32,330 nt of DNA. Origin: an uncultured Opitutaceae bacterium (lineage in GTDB: Bacteria > Verrucomicrobiota > Verrucomicrobiia > Opitutales > Opitutaceae). The notes beneath the pieces are model-generated. The model saw nothing but the letters and a program-made list of their open reading frames with translations. It was not told the DNA's origin and did not search any database. The stretch spans positions 1 through 32,330 of the forward strand of contig CALDFV010000240.1 in NCBI GenBank assembly GCA_937942145.1. The letters run 5' to 3'. Positions 18,580-25,633 of this stretch are shown piece after piece. Position 1 is the stretch's first letter. The number at the start of each line of letters is the position of its first letter. Both the position numbers and the translations under genes were made by a program.

Positions 18580-19182
18580 ATGTCTCGCCAATTCAGTATA
18601 TTCAGCTTTCTGCTGATCCTCTGTTTGCCTTTTTTTGTTGAGGGGTCGGTCGGAGTCCGTGACATTGAACTTGACCGACTCAACGGGAATTCTTCATCAG
18701 GCGATTGGCTAGAGTGCACTATCGAAGTCGAGGTGAGGCGAGATTCGCAGGACCCTACCCGCAAGAACCCGAGTTATGTGGACGATTTGGTGGTAAAGCT
18801 GATGCTTGGCGTGGAAGTGGAAAGCGAGTCGGGGAAAACCTTCGAGTTCTTCCGATCTGAAGCCGCCCTGGTCTCCTTGAAGGAAGGGCGTCACTACATA
18901 CGATTTTATCTGCCGCCTGAGATTGTGGAAAGGGACCGGGTGCGGAACGAAGTTCATTCCTTTTTGGTTCAGTTAGCGCGGTCCGGGGGCCCTGTTTTCG
19001 AGACAGTTTCGCGACAGTTGGAAAGGCCGCAGGTCAAAGACAGTTTCCTTAAACGGATCGAGGAAGAATCCCCTCAAAATGACGGCATTCTCCTGCCGCA
19101 GTTTAAAACGCCTTTCTCTGACGCCTATTCTCGAGAAACCCCCAGCTACCGAGACTTGGACACTCCAGTCTTGGTTCCTTAG
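18580..19182 (+). CDS. Small secreted pilus-associated protein, Amuc_1102-like
   Basis: 200-aa protein with a signal peptide, immediately upstream of the PilM/Amuc_1100/Amuc_1099/secretin genes. The assignment rests mainly on gene context plus general resemblance. Confidence 0.6.
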   Translation: MSRQFSIFSFLLILCLPFFVEGSVGVRDIELDRLNGNSSSGDWLECTIEVEVRRDSQDPTRKNPSYVDDLVVKLMLGVEVESESGKTFEFFRSEAALVSLKEGRHYIRFYLPPEIVERDRVRNEVHSFLVQLARSGGPVFETVSRQLERPQVKDSFLKRIEEESPQNDGILLPQFKTPFSDAYSRETPSYRDLDTPVLVP

Positions 19183-19428
19183 CTCTCAAAAAAGTTCGCC
19201 TGCCTGAAATCGGTTGATTTTTGGATGTTGCGCCGCTGTGAAATGGGTGAAATTGCTTATTGTCGTTAGTGAATCGCTCTTTGTTTTATGTCATGTGAGG
19301 AGCAATTCGTAGCAGGTGGGAAGTAATTCAGGGTTACATGGAATAGTGCATCGGTGTAAACACTTGTTGGTCGACCGTTTTTTCTTGTACCGATCTGATG
19401 TATTTCAAAAAATAGTAAAGAATTACAA

Positions 19429-21123
19429 ATGAGACCTCCTCACTACCTAGTTGTAAGCTGTGGCTCGAGCCACATTGCTGCTGTTCATCTGTCGATGAAC
19501 ACAAGCGGTCGCTGCGAGTTGGTCAACTACTGGAGGAAGGAACTAGATCAGTCGCTCAGCGAGCCCCTGCTCTGGCTCAAGGCGGCATCCCAGTCTTTTG
19601 GCGATGTCCGCTCTCGCTTCAAGGGTGACATGCCTGTGGGGTATGCGCTTCCTGGCAATCTGGTACTGACGAAGTATCTGAAGATCCCCCAAGTTCCTGT
19701 GAAGAAGCGGGAAAAGGTGGTCGCGTTTGAGGCCAGGCAGAATATCCCGTACCCGATTGCGGATGTGGCTTGGGATGACTATCTGATCGACGAAGATGAT
19801 CTGGACTTCGAAACCGTCATCGCCGCATCCAAATCTGAGCTTGTGGAATCGCTCTCACTTTACGGAAAGCAATCCAAGATGGATCCAGATGTGATTGAAC
19901 CGACTTTTGTGGGTTTGATCAATGCCTTCAGGTTCAACGAGCCCGAAGCCAGCGGTTGTTCGCTTCTTTTGTCGATCGGCGCAAAGTCGACCGACATTGT
20001 CTTTTTCGATGGTAGCAAGTTCTATTCAAGAAATGTGTCTCTAGGGGGTAACACAGTAACCCAGGAAATTCGAGGCGCTTTAGATTTGCCCTTTGATGAT
20101 GCTGAGAACATCAAGCGAGCTGCGAGCGCGGGTGACCCTTTACCAACGGGGGAGCAAATCGCCTTTAGGGAGGCTCAAGACAGCTTCCTCAAGAAGCTCA
20201 ATGTAGAAATCAGTCGAACCCTTGCCATTTACAAGAATCACGGATACGATGACGATCCCGTTCGGTGCTACATTACTGGGGGAGGGTCTCTGCTGCCGAA
20301 TCTCCAAGGTGGTTTGGGAGACCGTCTCGGTATACCTGTGGGGCACTTCGATCCCTTGAAAGAGGTTCGAGTTTCTACAAGTTGTTCTGACGAGAAGCTC
20401 GAAATGGATAAGGCTTTTCTCGCGGAGGCGATTGGAATCGCGATAGGGCGGTTTTTGCCCGACTCGACGCAAATCAATCTGCTCCCGAGGAGTATCCTAT
20501 GGCAGCGGAAATTTAAACGCCAGCAACCTTACTATCTTTTTGCGGGCCTCGTGGCGTGCGCGGCGATCGCATTGCCACTTGTTAACACAAAAATAGCGGC
20601 ACAACGATACGAAGAGGAGATCCGTAATCTAGATTCGAAAGTGATTCCTCTCCGGGAGCTCAATACTCGCATCAATAATCGAATAGCCGATATTGAGAAA
20701 TTGAGAAGCGTGATTGGGGAGGCGAGTATGATCGCGGAGAGTCGTTCAAACTGGATACAGTTTCTGAATGACATTCATTCGCGGCTCGACGACGTGGAAG
20801 ACGTATGGATAGACCGAATAGAGGTGGCCCGTCCGGTAACTCTCGCCTCAAATACTTCTAACCGTTTCAATTCTAAGCGAAACAACGCGAATGCTGCAGA
20901 ACCCAGCAAGGTCCGCCTTCATCTGGAAGGGCGGTTGCTCGATGTGTCCAATCCCCTTTCGACAGTGAGCCAGGAGTCTAATCGCCGGGTGTCGGCTCTG
21001 TTGGACAGCTTTGCTGCGTCCGAGTTTGTTGAAGGTCTGGAAAACGAGAGTTTCGACAATAACGTGCCTGGCATTCTGAAGTTTAATTTCACTTTGGTGG
21101 TCGATTCCGCCCGCCCATTGTAA
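19429..21123 (+). CDS. PilM-like actin-fold pilus assembly protein with C-terminal PilN-like segment (Amuc_1101-like)
   Basis: PilM-like region: KREKVVAFEARQNIPYPIADVAWDDYLI, LLLSIGAKSTDIVFFDGSKFYSRNVSLGGNTVTQEI, CYITGGGSLLPNLQGGLGDRLGIPVGHFDPLK. Then a TM helix (YYLFAGLVACAAIALPLV) and a coiled-coil/PilN-like region. Confidence 0.85.
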   Translation: MRPPHYLVVSCGSSHIAAVHLSMNTSGRCELVNYWRKELDQSLSEPLLWLKAASQSFGDVRSRFKGDMPVGYALPGNLVLTKYLKIPQVPVKKREKVVAFEARQNIPYPIADVAWDDYLIDEDDLDFETVIAASKSELVESLSLYGKQSKMDPDVIEPTFVGLINAFRFNEPEASGCSLLLSIGAKSTDIVFFDGSKFYSRNVSLGGNTVTQEIRGALDLPFDDAENIKRAASAGDPLPTGEQIAFREAQDSFLKKLNVEISRTLAIYKNHGYDDDPVRCYITGGGSLLPNLQGGLGDRLGIPVGHFDPLKEVRVSTSCSDEKLEMDKAFLAEAIGIAIGRFLPDSTQINLLPRSILWQRKFKRQQPYYLFAGLVACAAIALPLVNTKIAAQRYEEEIRNLDSKVIPLRELNTRINNRIADIEKLRSVIGEASMIAESRSNWIQFLNDIHSRLDDVEDVWIDRIEVARPVTLASNTSNRFNSKRNNANAAEPSKVRLHLEGRLLDVSNPLSTVSQESNRRVSALLDSFAASEFVEGLENESFDNNVPGILKFNFTLVVDSARPL

Positions 21124-21127
21124 TTCG

Positions 21128-22108
21128 ATGTTCTGGCTCAAGCGAAATCCTTTTTTCTATCTCACTCTTGGGCTGCTTTTGGTGGTCGCGATTGGGGGGA
21201 TGCTTTACACTTCGAAGGATGCGGATAGGCTCGATCAGCTCAAGGATCAGTATGAGTCCAAGGACAAGCAATTACAGCTTTTCTTGAGTCGATCTCCCGC
21301 TCCCACGAAAGCCAATCTTGCCGTTTTGGACCGAAATTATGAGCAATTGATGGAGGAGTTTAAGAAATCCCAAGCTTCTCTTAATCTGAGTACATTCGAC
21401 AAGGATCTGTTTTTTGGAAAACCGCCTTCGAACAGCAACGATGCCTTCTTCATGATCGCCAAGTACGTCGAGGATGCCCGGCGACTGGCAATTAGCAGTG
21501 GCGTGAAAACGGTCGAGGGCAGCCGATTTGGGTTTAAGCAGTACGAGAACGTGGGACCATCGAAAGAGGATATTACTCGGGTCCATCGGCAGACGAAGAT
21601 TATGGAAGCCCTGCTTCAAGCCCTATTTGACTCAGGCATCAGCGAGTTCGTATCCATCAAACGTGAAGGATCGGAAGAAGCTCAGCCGCAAGTGAAAGGG
21701 AGAAGTGATTCAACTTCGAACGGGGAATTATTCAGTTTAGAAGGCGATGGCTTGGTTCGCAGCACGGCTTCATTCGATTCTCTGGCCTTCCGGTTGGAAT
21801 TCAAGGGTCAGTCCCTCGCTATGAGAGGATTCCTGAATCGAATCACGGGTTCGTCTTTGCCCTTTTCAGTGCATGAAGTTGATGTGAAGCTCGAACGTGA
21901 ATCTGGGTCTGATGAAGGTCGCAGTGCGATTATTGACAATCCGTTCTTGAGCGAAGAAAACTCGAATGCGCAATCAAGGGCGGTTCAGGTGCCTATCATA
22001 TCGGAAAACGAGTCTCACTTCGGTGTGACCTTGGAGTTTCTTGAGTTGATTGATAGTGGGGAATTGACTGAGGTGGAGCTTGTGGAAAAGGGAAGTGGCA
22101 ATGTTTAG
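21128..22108 (+). CDS. Amuc_1100-like pilus-associated membrane protein
   Basis: N-terminal TM helix (FYLTLGLLLVVAIGGMLYTS), coiled coil (DQLKDQYESKDKQLQLFLSRSPAPTKANLAVLDRNYEQLMEEF), then a periplasmic domain. Sits between the PilM-like and Amuc_1099-like genes. Confidence 0.7.
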   Translation: MFWLKRNPFFYLTLGLLLVVAIGGMLYTSKDADRLDQLKDQYESKDKQLQLFLSRSPAPTKANLAVLDRNYEQLMEEFKKSQASLNLSTFDKDLFFGKPPSNSNDAFFMIAKYVEDARRLAISSGVKTVEGSRFGFKQYENVGPSKEDITRVHRQTKIMEALLQALFDSGISEFVSIKREGSEEAQPQVKGRSDSTSNGELFSLEGDGLVRSTASFDSLAFRLEFKGQSLAMRGFLNRITGSSLPFSVHEVDVKLERESGSDEGRSAIIDNPFLSEENSNAQSRAVQVPIISENESHFGVTLEFLELIDSGELTEVELVEKGSGNV

Positions 22109-23045
22109 ATTTAGTCTATCAGAATTTTTGGATAAGTTCATCCTACTGGTTGCGATGGTCGTTTTTCTTCTGATGGGGATTATGAGCATCAAGAGTGTGA
22201 AAAGTTTAGATACACTATCTAGTCAAGACATGCCGATGCTTTCAGAGAATAAGGTGGACGTGGAGCCGTTCGTTGTAGATAGGCATATCCCTAAGTCAAT
22301 TTCCTGGGCCCCTCCTCAGCCTCAATCTCGTGGAGAGGATTGGGTTTTCGATGTGTTTACGCCTCCGGTGCTTTACTACAACCCTGCCTCGCGAGAGTTT
22401 ACGGTAACTTCTCCGGAAATAACGAACTCGAAATCCAAAGATCCTTGGAAGGCGTTTGAGATAGAGCTTGTTGAAGTGAGGCAGCGCCCGTACCGGCTCC
22501 AATTGGTTGGGTATGCCGGAGAAGAGGGTAACTACATGGCTTATTTCGAGTTCCTGAATACCAATGAACTTCTCTTGGCTAAATCGGGCAAAATGCTTGT
22601 GGAAGCAGGGGTTAAAGTCCTTTCTTTCGAAGTGAAGCAGATGGAGGTCGAGCAAGAGGGAAGCATGCCGGTCTTTGAAAAGGTGGGTGTTGCCCGATTG
22701 CTTGACTATGAGACTAACGAAGAAGTTTATCTCACGAATTTGGAGACGAAAATGTTCTCTGATCTGGAGGCCAAAGTTCGTTCTACTGAGAATGGAGACG
22801 TTTATGTCGTTCGTGAAGGAAGCCAGGTTGAGCTGGCAGATAGTTCATATGTGATCGGGGCTCTGTCAGACAGCCCTCCGGAAGCGATGGTAACGAAAAT
22901 TTCTATCGATGGCGGAAAACGCCTTTCCAAATTGCTCAAGCCGTCTGCGACTGACGATTTGCTGAATCAAGGTAACCAAGATCAAGGTACTTACAGTCCT
23001 TTCGCGATTAGGCCAAAAATCGTCTCTCCGAAACCCAATAGTTAA
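22101..23045 (+). CDS. Amuc_1099-like pilus-system protein (single TM, PilP-like position)
   Basis: ATG at 22101 overlaps the upstream stop (ATGTTTAG). N-terminal TM helix LDKFILLVAMVVFLLMGIM; sits between the Amuc_1100-like and secretin genes. Confidence 0.65.
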   Translation: MFRFSLSEFLDKFILLVAMVVFLLMGIMSIKSVKSLDTLSSQDMPMLSENKVDVEPFVVDRHIPKSISWAPPQPQSRGEDWVFDVFTPPVLYYNPASREFTVTSPEITNSKSKDPWKAFEIELVEVRQRPYRLQLVGYAGEEGNYMAYFEFLNTNELLLAKSGKMLVEAGVKVLSFEVKQMEVEQEGSMPVFEKVGVARLLDYETNEEVYLTNLETKMFSDLEAKVRSTENGDVYVVREGSQVELADSSYVIGALSDSPPEAMVTKISIDGGKRLSKLLKPSATDDLLNQGNQDQGTYSPFAIRPKIVSPKPNS

Positions 23046-23071
23046 TTTCCCCAATCAGAGCTCCCAAGCCT

Positions 23072-25633
23072 ATGAAAAACTTAAAATCACATTTTTCGAA
23101 ATTCGCTGTATACGCTGCAGTTGCCATGATTTCGATCGTCTCGACAAGTTCCTCCTTGGGACAGAGTGAGATCGATACCAAGATCCGATTGATGTCGGAG
23201 GCTCTGCAAGCACGCGACTCGGGAGACTTGGAGAAAGCCCGAGAGCGATTGAATCAGCTGTTGGAGATTACACCGGCTGACCGTTCAGTCCAAAGCATTC
23301 TCAAAAGCGTCGATAGCATGATCGCTGACAAGAACAGTGCGGGTGGCTCGAACGCTGCGTCGGCAGCCGCAGATCGAAGGGCAGCCCTGCAAAGCGAAGC
23401 GGAATATTTGGCGCGACTAGAGGCAGAGCGTATTGAAAAATCAATGGTGAGCGCTCGAGAGATTCGTGAAATCGCTTTAAGACAAAGTAAGCGCGGTGAC
23501 TTTCCGCTCGCTCTCAAAACCATTGATAGCGCGATTGGAATGCTGGAGCCGAATCCATTGACGCAAACGCTGATTGATGAGCTCAAGCGCGATCAGCGGG
23601 AGATCTTGAGAAAGCAATCGACGAGCGATGCCCGGCGTGTGTCCGCCGCCGAATCCTCAAATGGACTTTTGCCTATCGACCAGATCAGTCCAGATTTCGT
23701 CAATCTTCAGCAAGAGATTGAAGCATTGTCACTGCGCGGCCGGAGCCAGTTCATCGCAGGCGATATCGACGGAGCGGAGTCTTCCTTCAAGCAAATCGAA
23801 GCGCTAGATCCCAATAGCGCGATGGCGAAAAGCTTCCTTGTGAAGATCTCTCAAGAAAGACAGTCATTGGCTTACCTAAATAAACTGAAGTCTAGGGAAC
23901 AGCTTCTGGAAGAAGTCTCTAGCGCCTGGCAACGTCCGGGTATTTACGAAGAGCGTCCAGATGTGAACCCAACGGTGTTAGGCCCTGCTCCATTGCTGCA
24001 GAAGCTGGACCGGATTGTCATAGCCAATGTCAATTTTACTGAAGTCCCTCTTAACCAAGCAGTGAATACGCTAAGCGCGATTTCCGAGGATTTTGATAAC
24101 ACAGATATAGGAGCACCCGGTGTAAATCTCGTGCTCCTAGATCCAGAGCGGATCAATCCTACCGTGAACATCACGCTCCGCCATTTGTCGCTGAGGCGAA
24201 TATTGGATTTCATTGTCGACTCTGTTGGCTTTCAGTACGAAATCCAGGAAGATGCGGTAGTTCTGCGACCAGGAGGTGAAAATCGAAATCTGAATACAGA
24301 AGTATTTCCCGTTTCCCGGTCCACTGTAATTCGGATGACTGGATTGTCGGGTTCTTCGACTGAAAGCGCGTTTGATGCGGATCCATTCGCTTCTGGTGGT
24401 GGCACATCATCACCTGCAAGAGGAATGGCGAGCGATGCATTCACCATTCAAAATTTCTTGCAGCAGGCGGGGGTAGATTTCAGCAACACCGAAGGTAGCA
24501 CAATGGCTTACGACGGATCGGCGATGATTGTGACCCAATCCACGCGAAACCTGGAGCGTATCCGAAATATACTGAATCGGTATACCGATGTTAAGCAGGT
24601 CGAAATTGAAGCTAAGTTCCTCGAGGTTCAAGAAGGGACGATCGAAGAATTGGGATTTGATTGGATACTGACCCATGACGATAGCAGAACAAGTAGTAAT
24701 CCAAATGGAACGGGTGAGGACTACCGGAGTTCACTGAGAAGTCTCTCTGATACAAGTTCCCCCTCAAATGTATCGAGTGCTATTTTGATCGACGGACTGG
24801 AAGTCGAGCGGATTACACCTCCGGATATTCCAGGTGGCGTGCCTCTTGGGGTAGGCAGTGAGCCTTTGACACGAATTTTTGGGGACATCGGAAAGATGAG
24901 CGTGGACGTTGCCGTTCGCGCACTTTCCCAGACTTCCGGATCCGATCTGTTAAGCGCTCCTAAAGTAACCGTGCTTTCCGGAAACCAGGCGGAAATAAAC
25001 GTTAGCCAGGAGTTTCGTTACCCGACCCGCTACACGGATACTGAGAGTAATGTTGGTAATACCAGTGGTAGTATCAACGGTGGAGGTGCTGCTGGAGTAA
25101 CGATTACACCTGGTACGCCAGAAGATTTCGAAACTAGAAATATCGGAGTCGAACTCTCGGTAACGCCAATCGTTGAAGAGGATGATTACAGTATTACTTT
25201 GGAGCTCAACCCGAGCGTGACCGAATTTGAAGGATTCGTCGAGTACGGCGGGCCGAGCGTCGCATTGACTGCGGACCGCACAGTGAAAGTTCCCTCGGGT
25301 TTCTATCAACCGATTTTCGCGGTGAGGGAAATCTCAACCAAAGTTACCATATGGGATGGGGCAACCGTGGTAATGGGTGGTTTAACGCGTGAAGACGTGA
25401 TCACGGTTAACGACAAAGTTCCTTTTCTTGGAGACATGCCATTTTTCGGGCGGTTCTTCCGCTCTGAAGGTGAGACGTCCTCCAAGCGGAATTTGCTGAT
25501 ATTCGTTACGGCAAATCTGGTTAGTCCTGGTGGATCGCCCAAGCGTCAAACCCTTCGAGGGGTACAGCCAGGGGCACTCTTCCAGAATCCGACAATTGTA
25601 ACTCCGGGCGGAAGCGAGTCACGGAGTCAATAG
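23072..25633 (+). CDS. Type IV pilus-type secretin (PilQ/Amuc_1098-like outer membrane protein)
   Basis: Signal peptide, N-terminal TPR-like helices, STN-like VNITLRHLSLRRILDFIVDSVGFQYEIQEDAVVLRPG, and secretin core (LLSAPKVTVLSGNQAEINVSQEFRYPTRY...VELSVTPIVEEDDYSITLELNPSVTEFEGF...VVMGGLTREDVITVNDKVPFLGDMPFFGRFFRSEG). Confidence 0.93.
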   Translation: MKNLKSHFSKFAVYAAVAMISIVSTSSSLGQSEIDTKIRLMSEALQARDSGDLEKARERLNQLLEITPADRSVQSILKSVDSMIADKNSAGGSNAASAAADRRAALQSEAEYLARLEAERIEKSMVSAREIREIALRQSKRGDFPLALKTIDSAIGMLEPNPLTQTLIDELKRDQREILRKQSTSDARRVSAAESSNGLLPIDQISPDFVNLQQEIEALSLRGRSQFIAGDIDGAESSFKQIEALDPNSAMAKSFLVKISQERQSLAYLNKLKSREQLLEEVSSAWQRPGIYEERPDVNPTVLGPAPLLQKLDRIVIANVNFTEVPLNQAVNTLSAISEDFDNTDIGAPGVNLVLLDPERINPTVNITLRHLSLRRILDFIVDSVGFQYEIQEDAVVLRPGGENRNLNTEVFPVSRSTVIRMTGLSGSSTESAFDADPFASGGGTSSPARGMASDAFTIQNFLQQAGVDFSNTEGSTMAYDGSAMIVTQSTRNLERIRNILNRYTDVKQVEIEAKFLEVQEGTIEELGFDWILTHDDSRTSSNPNGTGEDYRSSLRSLSDTSSPSNVSSAILIDGLEVERITPPDIPGGVPLGVGSEPLTRIFGDIGKMSVDVAVRALSQTSGSDLLSAPKVTVLSGNQAEINVSQEFRYPTRYTDTESNVGNTSGSINGGGAAGVTITPGTPEDFETRNIGVELSVTPIVEEDDYSITLELNPSVTEFEGFVEYGGPSVALTADRTVKVPSGFYQPIFAVREISTKVTIWDGATVVMGGLTREDVITVNDKVPFLGDMPFFGRFFRSEGETSSKRNLLIFVTANLVSPGGSPKRQTLRGVQPGALFQNPTIVTPGGSESRSQ

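Follow-up and report, generated by a model that had tools for sequence, protein, structure and literature searches.

The window, that is, the whole stretch of 32,330 nucleotides analysed here, comes from a marine relative of Akkermansia and contains five uninterrupted open reading frames in series on the plus strand at positions 18580-25633, as had been claimed from the sequence alone (the sequence-only reading). Gene 1 (18580-19182) codes for an Amuc_1102-like small secreted protein of 200 aa, gene 2 (19429-21123) for an Amuc_1101-like PilM-PilN fusion of 564 aa, gene 3 (21128-22108) for an Amuc_1100-like, PilO-like single-TM coiled-coil protein of 326 aa, gene 4 (22101-23045) for an Amuc_1099-like protein of 314 aa and gene 5 (23072-25633) for an Amuc_1098-like secretin of 853 aa. 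Genes 2 and 3 are separated by 4 bp and genes 4 and 5 by 26 bp, while genes 3 and 4 overlap by 8 bp if the ATG at position 22101 is taken as the start of gene 4; this internal ATG is probably the true start, rather than the listed TTG at position 22080. The gap between genes 1 and 2 (19183-19428) measures 246 bp, compared with a median of about 78 bp elsewhere, and no promoter or terminator signal was found in it, the scans remaining at or below chance. By hydropathy, each protein possesses one membrane or signal segment, which is N-terminal in the products of genes 1, 3, 4 and 5 and located around residue 367 in that of gene 2. The predicted signal peptides, membrane helices and PilM, coiled-coil, TPR and secretin domains bear out the protein types that had been assigned from the sequence. 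The window also lacks genes for PilB, PilT, PilC and the prepilin peptidase, as previously noted; these are encoded on other contigs of the same genome.

In gene order, strand and protein types, the locus resembles the Amuc_1102-1101-1100-1099-1098 cluster of Akkermansia muciniphila, that is, MUL2 and its secretin, which has already been published (Ottman and colleagues, PMC5332112). This likeness, proposed in the sequence-only reading together with a search against the family models, is borne out by the family scores and by synteny. For genes 1, 2, 3 and 5, the corresponding Amuc family was the best or the sole NCBIfam match, with E values of 5e-116 for Amuc_1098, 7e-82 for Amuc_1101, 6e-22 for Amuc_1100 and 1.7e-5 for Amuc_1102, and by this measure the matches are far beyond chance. 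None of these four genes reached the equivalog cut-off of its family, the scores being 389 bits against a cut-off of 750 for NF042912, 276 against 650 for NF045709, 78 against 180 for NF038287 and 24.5 against 55 for NF042424, which indicates that they are divergent relatives. Strict membership of the four families was rejected, as all scores were under the cut-offs. Gene 4 had no informative NCBIfam match. BLASTP identity to the Akkermansia locus L139 was 29% for the 1098, 26% for the 1101 and 23% for the 1100 protein, with no significant match for the 1102 protein. Besides this low identity, the window differs from the Akkermansia cluster by its place in the Opitutales and by its flanks, a divergent NUDIX hydrolase gene and pdhA (pyruvate dehydrogenase E1 alpha) upstream and a 5'-3' exonuclease gene downstream. 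The proteins could have fallen into the ordinary PilMNOPQ families without a specific affinity to the Amuc families, and this was not the case: the secretin scored 389 bits with the Amuc_1098 model versus 115-140 bits with those for PilQ, MshL and GspD (GspD being next best with 140), and the gene 2 product 276 bits with the Amuc_1101 model versus 111 bits with PilM. These scores support a specific affinity to the Amuc_1098-1102 set.

The product of gene 2 combines a PilM domain with the internal membrane helix. It matches PilM_2 (PF11104) with 85 bits, above the cut-off of 27, and hence carries a PilM actin-like domain by the measure of this model. An AF2 model of the protein (pLDDT 88.7) displays the PilM fold, followed by a long helix and an alpha/beta domain, and a Foldseek search with this model placed Pseudomonas aeruginosa PilM structures at the top, the first being the PilM:PilN construct 5eou, closely followed by the PilM-PilN complex 2ych. 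At the junction of the two halves lies an INLLP motif (20473-20487, plus strand), the PilM-binding peptide expected of PilN. Across 49 homologues, L351 of this motif never varies and P353 hardly ever does; the strict motif is present in 19 of 73 homologues and looser forms (SLLPP, NLxPP) in many others. The PilN-like half (20476-21102, plus strand, approximately residues 350-558) comprises the membrane helix, the long helix and the alpha/beta domain. The profile of the 1101-like family matches Myxococcus PilN (3jc8_Na) over residues 351-526 with an E value of 2.4e-7, and hhalign aligned this half with the PilN-like tails of other systems of the phylum with a probability of 98.3%, versus 1.2% for a reversed control. 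The N-terminal half matches PilM in all 49 gene 2 homologues. A PilN as found in canonical PilMNOPQ systems is thus present, though fused to PilM, and the fold, profile and motif evidence shows the Amuc_1101-like protein to be a PilM-PilN fusion.

The gene 3 product consists of an N-terminal membrane helix and a coiled coil and matched no family other than NF038287. An Opitutales-only 1100 profile recovered the Amuc_1100 crystal structures first (3.4e-5). When compared with pilus proteins by hhalign, the 1100-like family aligned with PilO along most of its sequence, with a probability of 87% versus 0.3% for the reversed control; the probability for PilN was 6%. All conclusions drawn here from hhalign rest on the results for profiles A5 and A2C only; profile A3 was left out as artefactual, since its "matches" extended, at 99%, to the unrelated A1. 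Profiles A3 and A4 contain Akkermansia rows, which makes their PDB matches partly circular, and A5 and A6 were made to avoid this circularity. The PilO Pfam model PF04350 matched none of 47 Amuc_1100-like homologues. Overall, the profile comparisons suggest with moderate confidence that the Amuc_1100-like protein is most like PilO. A literature search, with most subscription papers outside its reach, found no paper that assigns Amuc_1100 to PilO.

For gene 4, the AF2 model contains an N-terminal TM helix, a disordered linker and periplasmic beta domains, and had no significant fold match in the PDB. The BLASTP match to the Akkermansia 1099 protein was weak (E value of 0.015 over 60 aa), and in a targeted search of one locus, a phylum-wide 1099 profile recovered the Akkermansia protein weakly, with 17 bits. 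Gene 4 and Amuc_1099 share the same position and topology, and in Akkermansia-type loci gene 4 was seen as an open reading frame in the right place, not by the automatic profile. No Pfam PilP match was obtained for gene 4, and a genome search with the PilP model is uninformative, as the model was silent throughout, controls included. Topology and position make the Amuc_1099-like protein a candidate for PilP. A signal peptide is predicted for the gene 1 product, in which no prepilin GFxxxE motif is obvious. The top PDB match of an Opitutales-only 1102 profile was Amuc_1102 (7dsz), at a weak E value of 0.09; the E value of 2.4e-33 obtained with the phylum profile is partly circular, as that profile holds Akkermansia rows. 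Single-sequence searches of the PDB with genes 1 and 3 gave no match.

The product of gene 5 contains a signal peptide, TPR, STN and Secretin domains according to Pfam, with the secretin pore domain encoded at 24920-25522 on the plus strand (PF00263, E value of 1.6e-36). With the PilQ model TIGR02515 it scored 115 bits, below the cut-off of 284, whereas the generic Secretin domain was recognised. In a tree, gene 5 groups with Amuc_1098-type secretins, apart from the GspD and the PilQ of the same genome. Amuc_1098 itself has been named PilQ and localised to the outer membrane by Ottman and colleagues, who also noted relatives in other Verrucomicrobia (PMC4960237). The Amuc_1098-like protein is accordingly a secretin of the PilQ type that bears TPRs. 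The contrast that had been drawn between an Amuc-type and an ordinary PilMNOPQ locus partly dissolves, as the former has the look of a diverged PilM-N/O/(P)/Q set.

The same five-gene order is found in dozens of Opitutales loci and independent genomes. Among 80 loci that were fetched by the secretin, the usual flanks are NUDIX/pdhA before and an exonuclease after the cluster, and many of the incomplete five-gene patterns stem from short contigs. The survey across Verrucomicrobiota that the sequence-only reading had suggested also recovered the exact order in locus L141, recognised as A. muciniphila by the identity of its 1100 protein with that of the Amuc_1100 crystal (6lad). The order occurs as well in further Akkermansiaceae and in more remote lineages of the phylum, several of them with tandem secretins. 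The Amuc_1098 model matched 379 of 388 genomes, but also E. coli and seven other controls. This count is inflated by generic secretins, and we therefore used the Amuc_1100 model, which matched 302 of the 388 Verrucomicrobiota genomes (160 of 198 genera) and one of 14 controls, B. subtilis; it was over the cut-off in 36 genomes, and the weakest matches (approximately 1e-4 to 1e-6, mostly in family f22) are doubtful. An Amuc_1100 match is missing from the genomes of family f11, which probably represents the Methylacidiphilales and for which an absence has been published, and also from part of the window's own family. All six f11 genomes have neither a secretin nor a PilC. Five nearly complete genomes of the window's family (G010, G080, G088, G143 and G284) have no Amuc_1100 match and weak secretin matches to the Amuc_1098 model, and these are apparent lineage-specific losses.

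A search of the window's own genome for the partner genes, likewise proposed beforehand, found them on other contigs: pilB adjoins pilT, which is apparently split over the ends of contigs C33 and C134, pilB-pilC are on C129, another pilC is on C197, further PilB-like ATPases are on C211 and C52 and a prepilin peptidase is on C72. PilB, PilT, PilC and PilD, the partners needed for a type IV pilus, are thus all encoded. The genome also codes for a complete, separate type II secretion system on C100 with GspD, GspE, GspF and pseudopilins. A separate PilMNOP-like set (L134, C47:104-8869) has a PilQ-type secretin of 560 aa beside pilins that carry N-methylation motifs; no Pfam or NCBIfam model matched the PilM-like and PilN-like proteins of this set. 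Because of this second set, it is not settled in the window's genome which set is served by PilB, PilC and PilT. Smaller genomes are more telling in this respect, and those considered were selected for being informative and are not a random sample. Three small Opitutales genomes (G149, G176 and G305, 97-98% complete) possess exactly one secretin and one PilC alongside the five-gene cluster, with matches for pilB-pilT-pilB-pilC together on another contig, an arrangement read directly in G149 and G176. With a single secretin and a single PilC, the cluster must serve the pilus in these bacteria. A. muciniphila (G113) has two Amuc_1098-type secretins and only one PilC; its PilB and PilT are encoded separately, elsewhere in the genome. 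In another small Opitutales genome (G108, 99% complete), the only secretin match (C6:72220-72626) is broken by stops, and PilB, PilT and PilC are kept. Two genomes of 0.9 Mb from family f13 (G036 and G057) have one secretin of approximately 630-650 aa, no PilC and no PilB.

We propose, with a probability of roughly 80%, that the locus codes for the outer membrane secretin and the inner-membrane alignment complex of a Verrucomicrobiota type IV pilus. The gene 2 product places its PilM-like actin-fold domain in the cytoplasm, followed by the INLLP-type motif and the membrane helix, and its PilN-like domain in the periplasm. The Amuc_1100-like protein would be the PilO-type partner, and the gene 4 product, judging from topology and position, may provide a PilP-type link to the gene 5 product, a PilQ-type secretin with N-terminal TPRs. 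On the same grounds, the secreted product of gene 1 might be a periplasmic or surface accessory. PilB, PilT, PilC and the prepilin peptidase, whose genes lie on other contigs, would serve this module in trans, and pili passing through the secretin could mediate attachment, motility or uptake. The sequence-only reading had offered as alternatives a lineage-specific alignment/secretin module served from elsewhere and a non-canonical pilus-like secretion system; the former fits best, except that the module is phylum-wide and not narrowly lineage-specific. Canonical type IVa systems share with the window the PilM fold, a PilN-like domain with INLLP, a PilO-like partner and a PilQ-type secretin, as well as PilB, PilT, PilC and PilD in the genome. 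In contrast to canonical PilMNOPQ, PilM and PilN are fused, TPRs precede the secretin, the 1100 and 1099 proteins escape the PilO and PilP Pfam models and an extra secreted protein opens the cluster. The missing fold match for 1099 and the missing PilO Pfam match for 1100 count against the proposed explanation, as do the separate PilMNOP-like set on C47 and the retention of PilC in G108, whose only secretin match has internal stops.

The locus could instead code for a dedicated uptake or attachment device like MUL2, in which polysaccharide would be captured or imported by the secretin together with the periplasmic proteins and a pilus is secondary or absent. In A. muciniphila, MUL2 has been tied to the accumulation of mucin, and in aquatic Akkermansiaceae to attachment to particles (PMC13174399, PMC12418764), and the second PilMNOPQ-like set of the window's genome could be the actual pilus machine. 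However, the cluster co-occurs with PilB, PilC and PilT and is the sole secretin module in the three small genomes, and PilM-PilN and PilQ are pilus-type parts; we consider such a device unlikely, and since a capturing pilus would fit it as well, it may be no true alternative. It is highly improbable that the cluster is a diverged type II secretion apparatus in which a GspL/M/C/D-like set exports folded proteins: the secretin and inner-membrane scaffold come from the same superfamily, PilM-PilN fusions resemble GspL in layout and four of 49 gene 2 homologues match T2SSL weakly, but the N-terminal half is PilM throughout, the secretin has a much stronger affinity to Amuc_1098 than to GspD, and the type II system on C100 has separate genes, its own ATPase and pseudopilins and a secretin on a separate branch of the tree. 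A type II identity was rejected on the basis of this complete system and the separate secretin branch.

Returning to the pilus alignment complex, we predict that the locus is an ordinary pilus gate and scaffold for this phylum and not special to the gut. Amuc_1100 has been studied as a therapeutic, host-active outer-membrane protein of the gut probiotic Akkermansia. Its relative at the PilO position in marine, freshwater and other Verrucomicrobiota predicts a native site and role for the protein, the site being the inner membrane and periplasm. On balance, we favour the view that the Verrucomicrobiota inherited the Amuc_1098-1102 locus as their ancestral type IV pilus alignment complex, based on the PilM-PilN fusion and a PilQ with TPRs. 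Amuc_1100 would then be its PilO equivalent, an inner-membrane scaffold protein that free-living marine bacteria have conserved, and the host effects would be incidental. What is new here is the extension to the Opitutales, the mapping of the PilM-PilN fusion and of PilO, and the argument for a pilus role from co-occurrence with a single secretin. Free-living relatives such as Pelagicoccus are candidate models for the locus, which is represented in Pelagicoccus mobilis by L026.

Further Amuc_1098-type secretins were seen in several loci. In Akkermansiaceae, a second one lies away from the cluster (L140:8885-13084, L144:5648-9784 and also L142), and its partner in both L140 and L144 is a conserved protein of approximately 520-550 aa with a single TM helix. 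Tandem secretins directly follow the cluster in L145:8204-14065, L146:8155-13205, L147:8154-13535 and L148:1839-7144, and those of L145 (genome G078) are reported in a single open frame of 1954 aa. Lastly, two loci from records titled Akkermansia muciniphila (L080 and L086) are Opitutales-like, with approximately 45% secretin identity to the window and are probably mislabelled MAGs.
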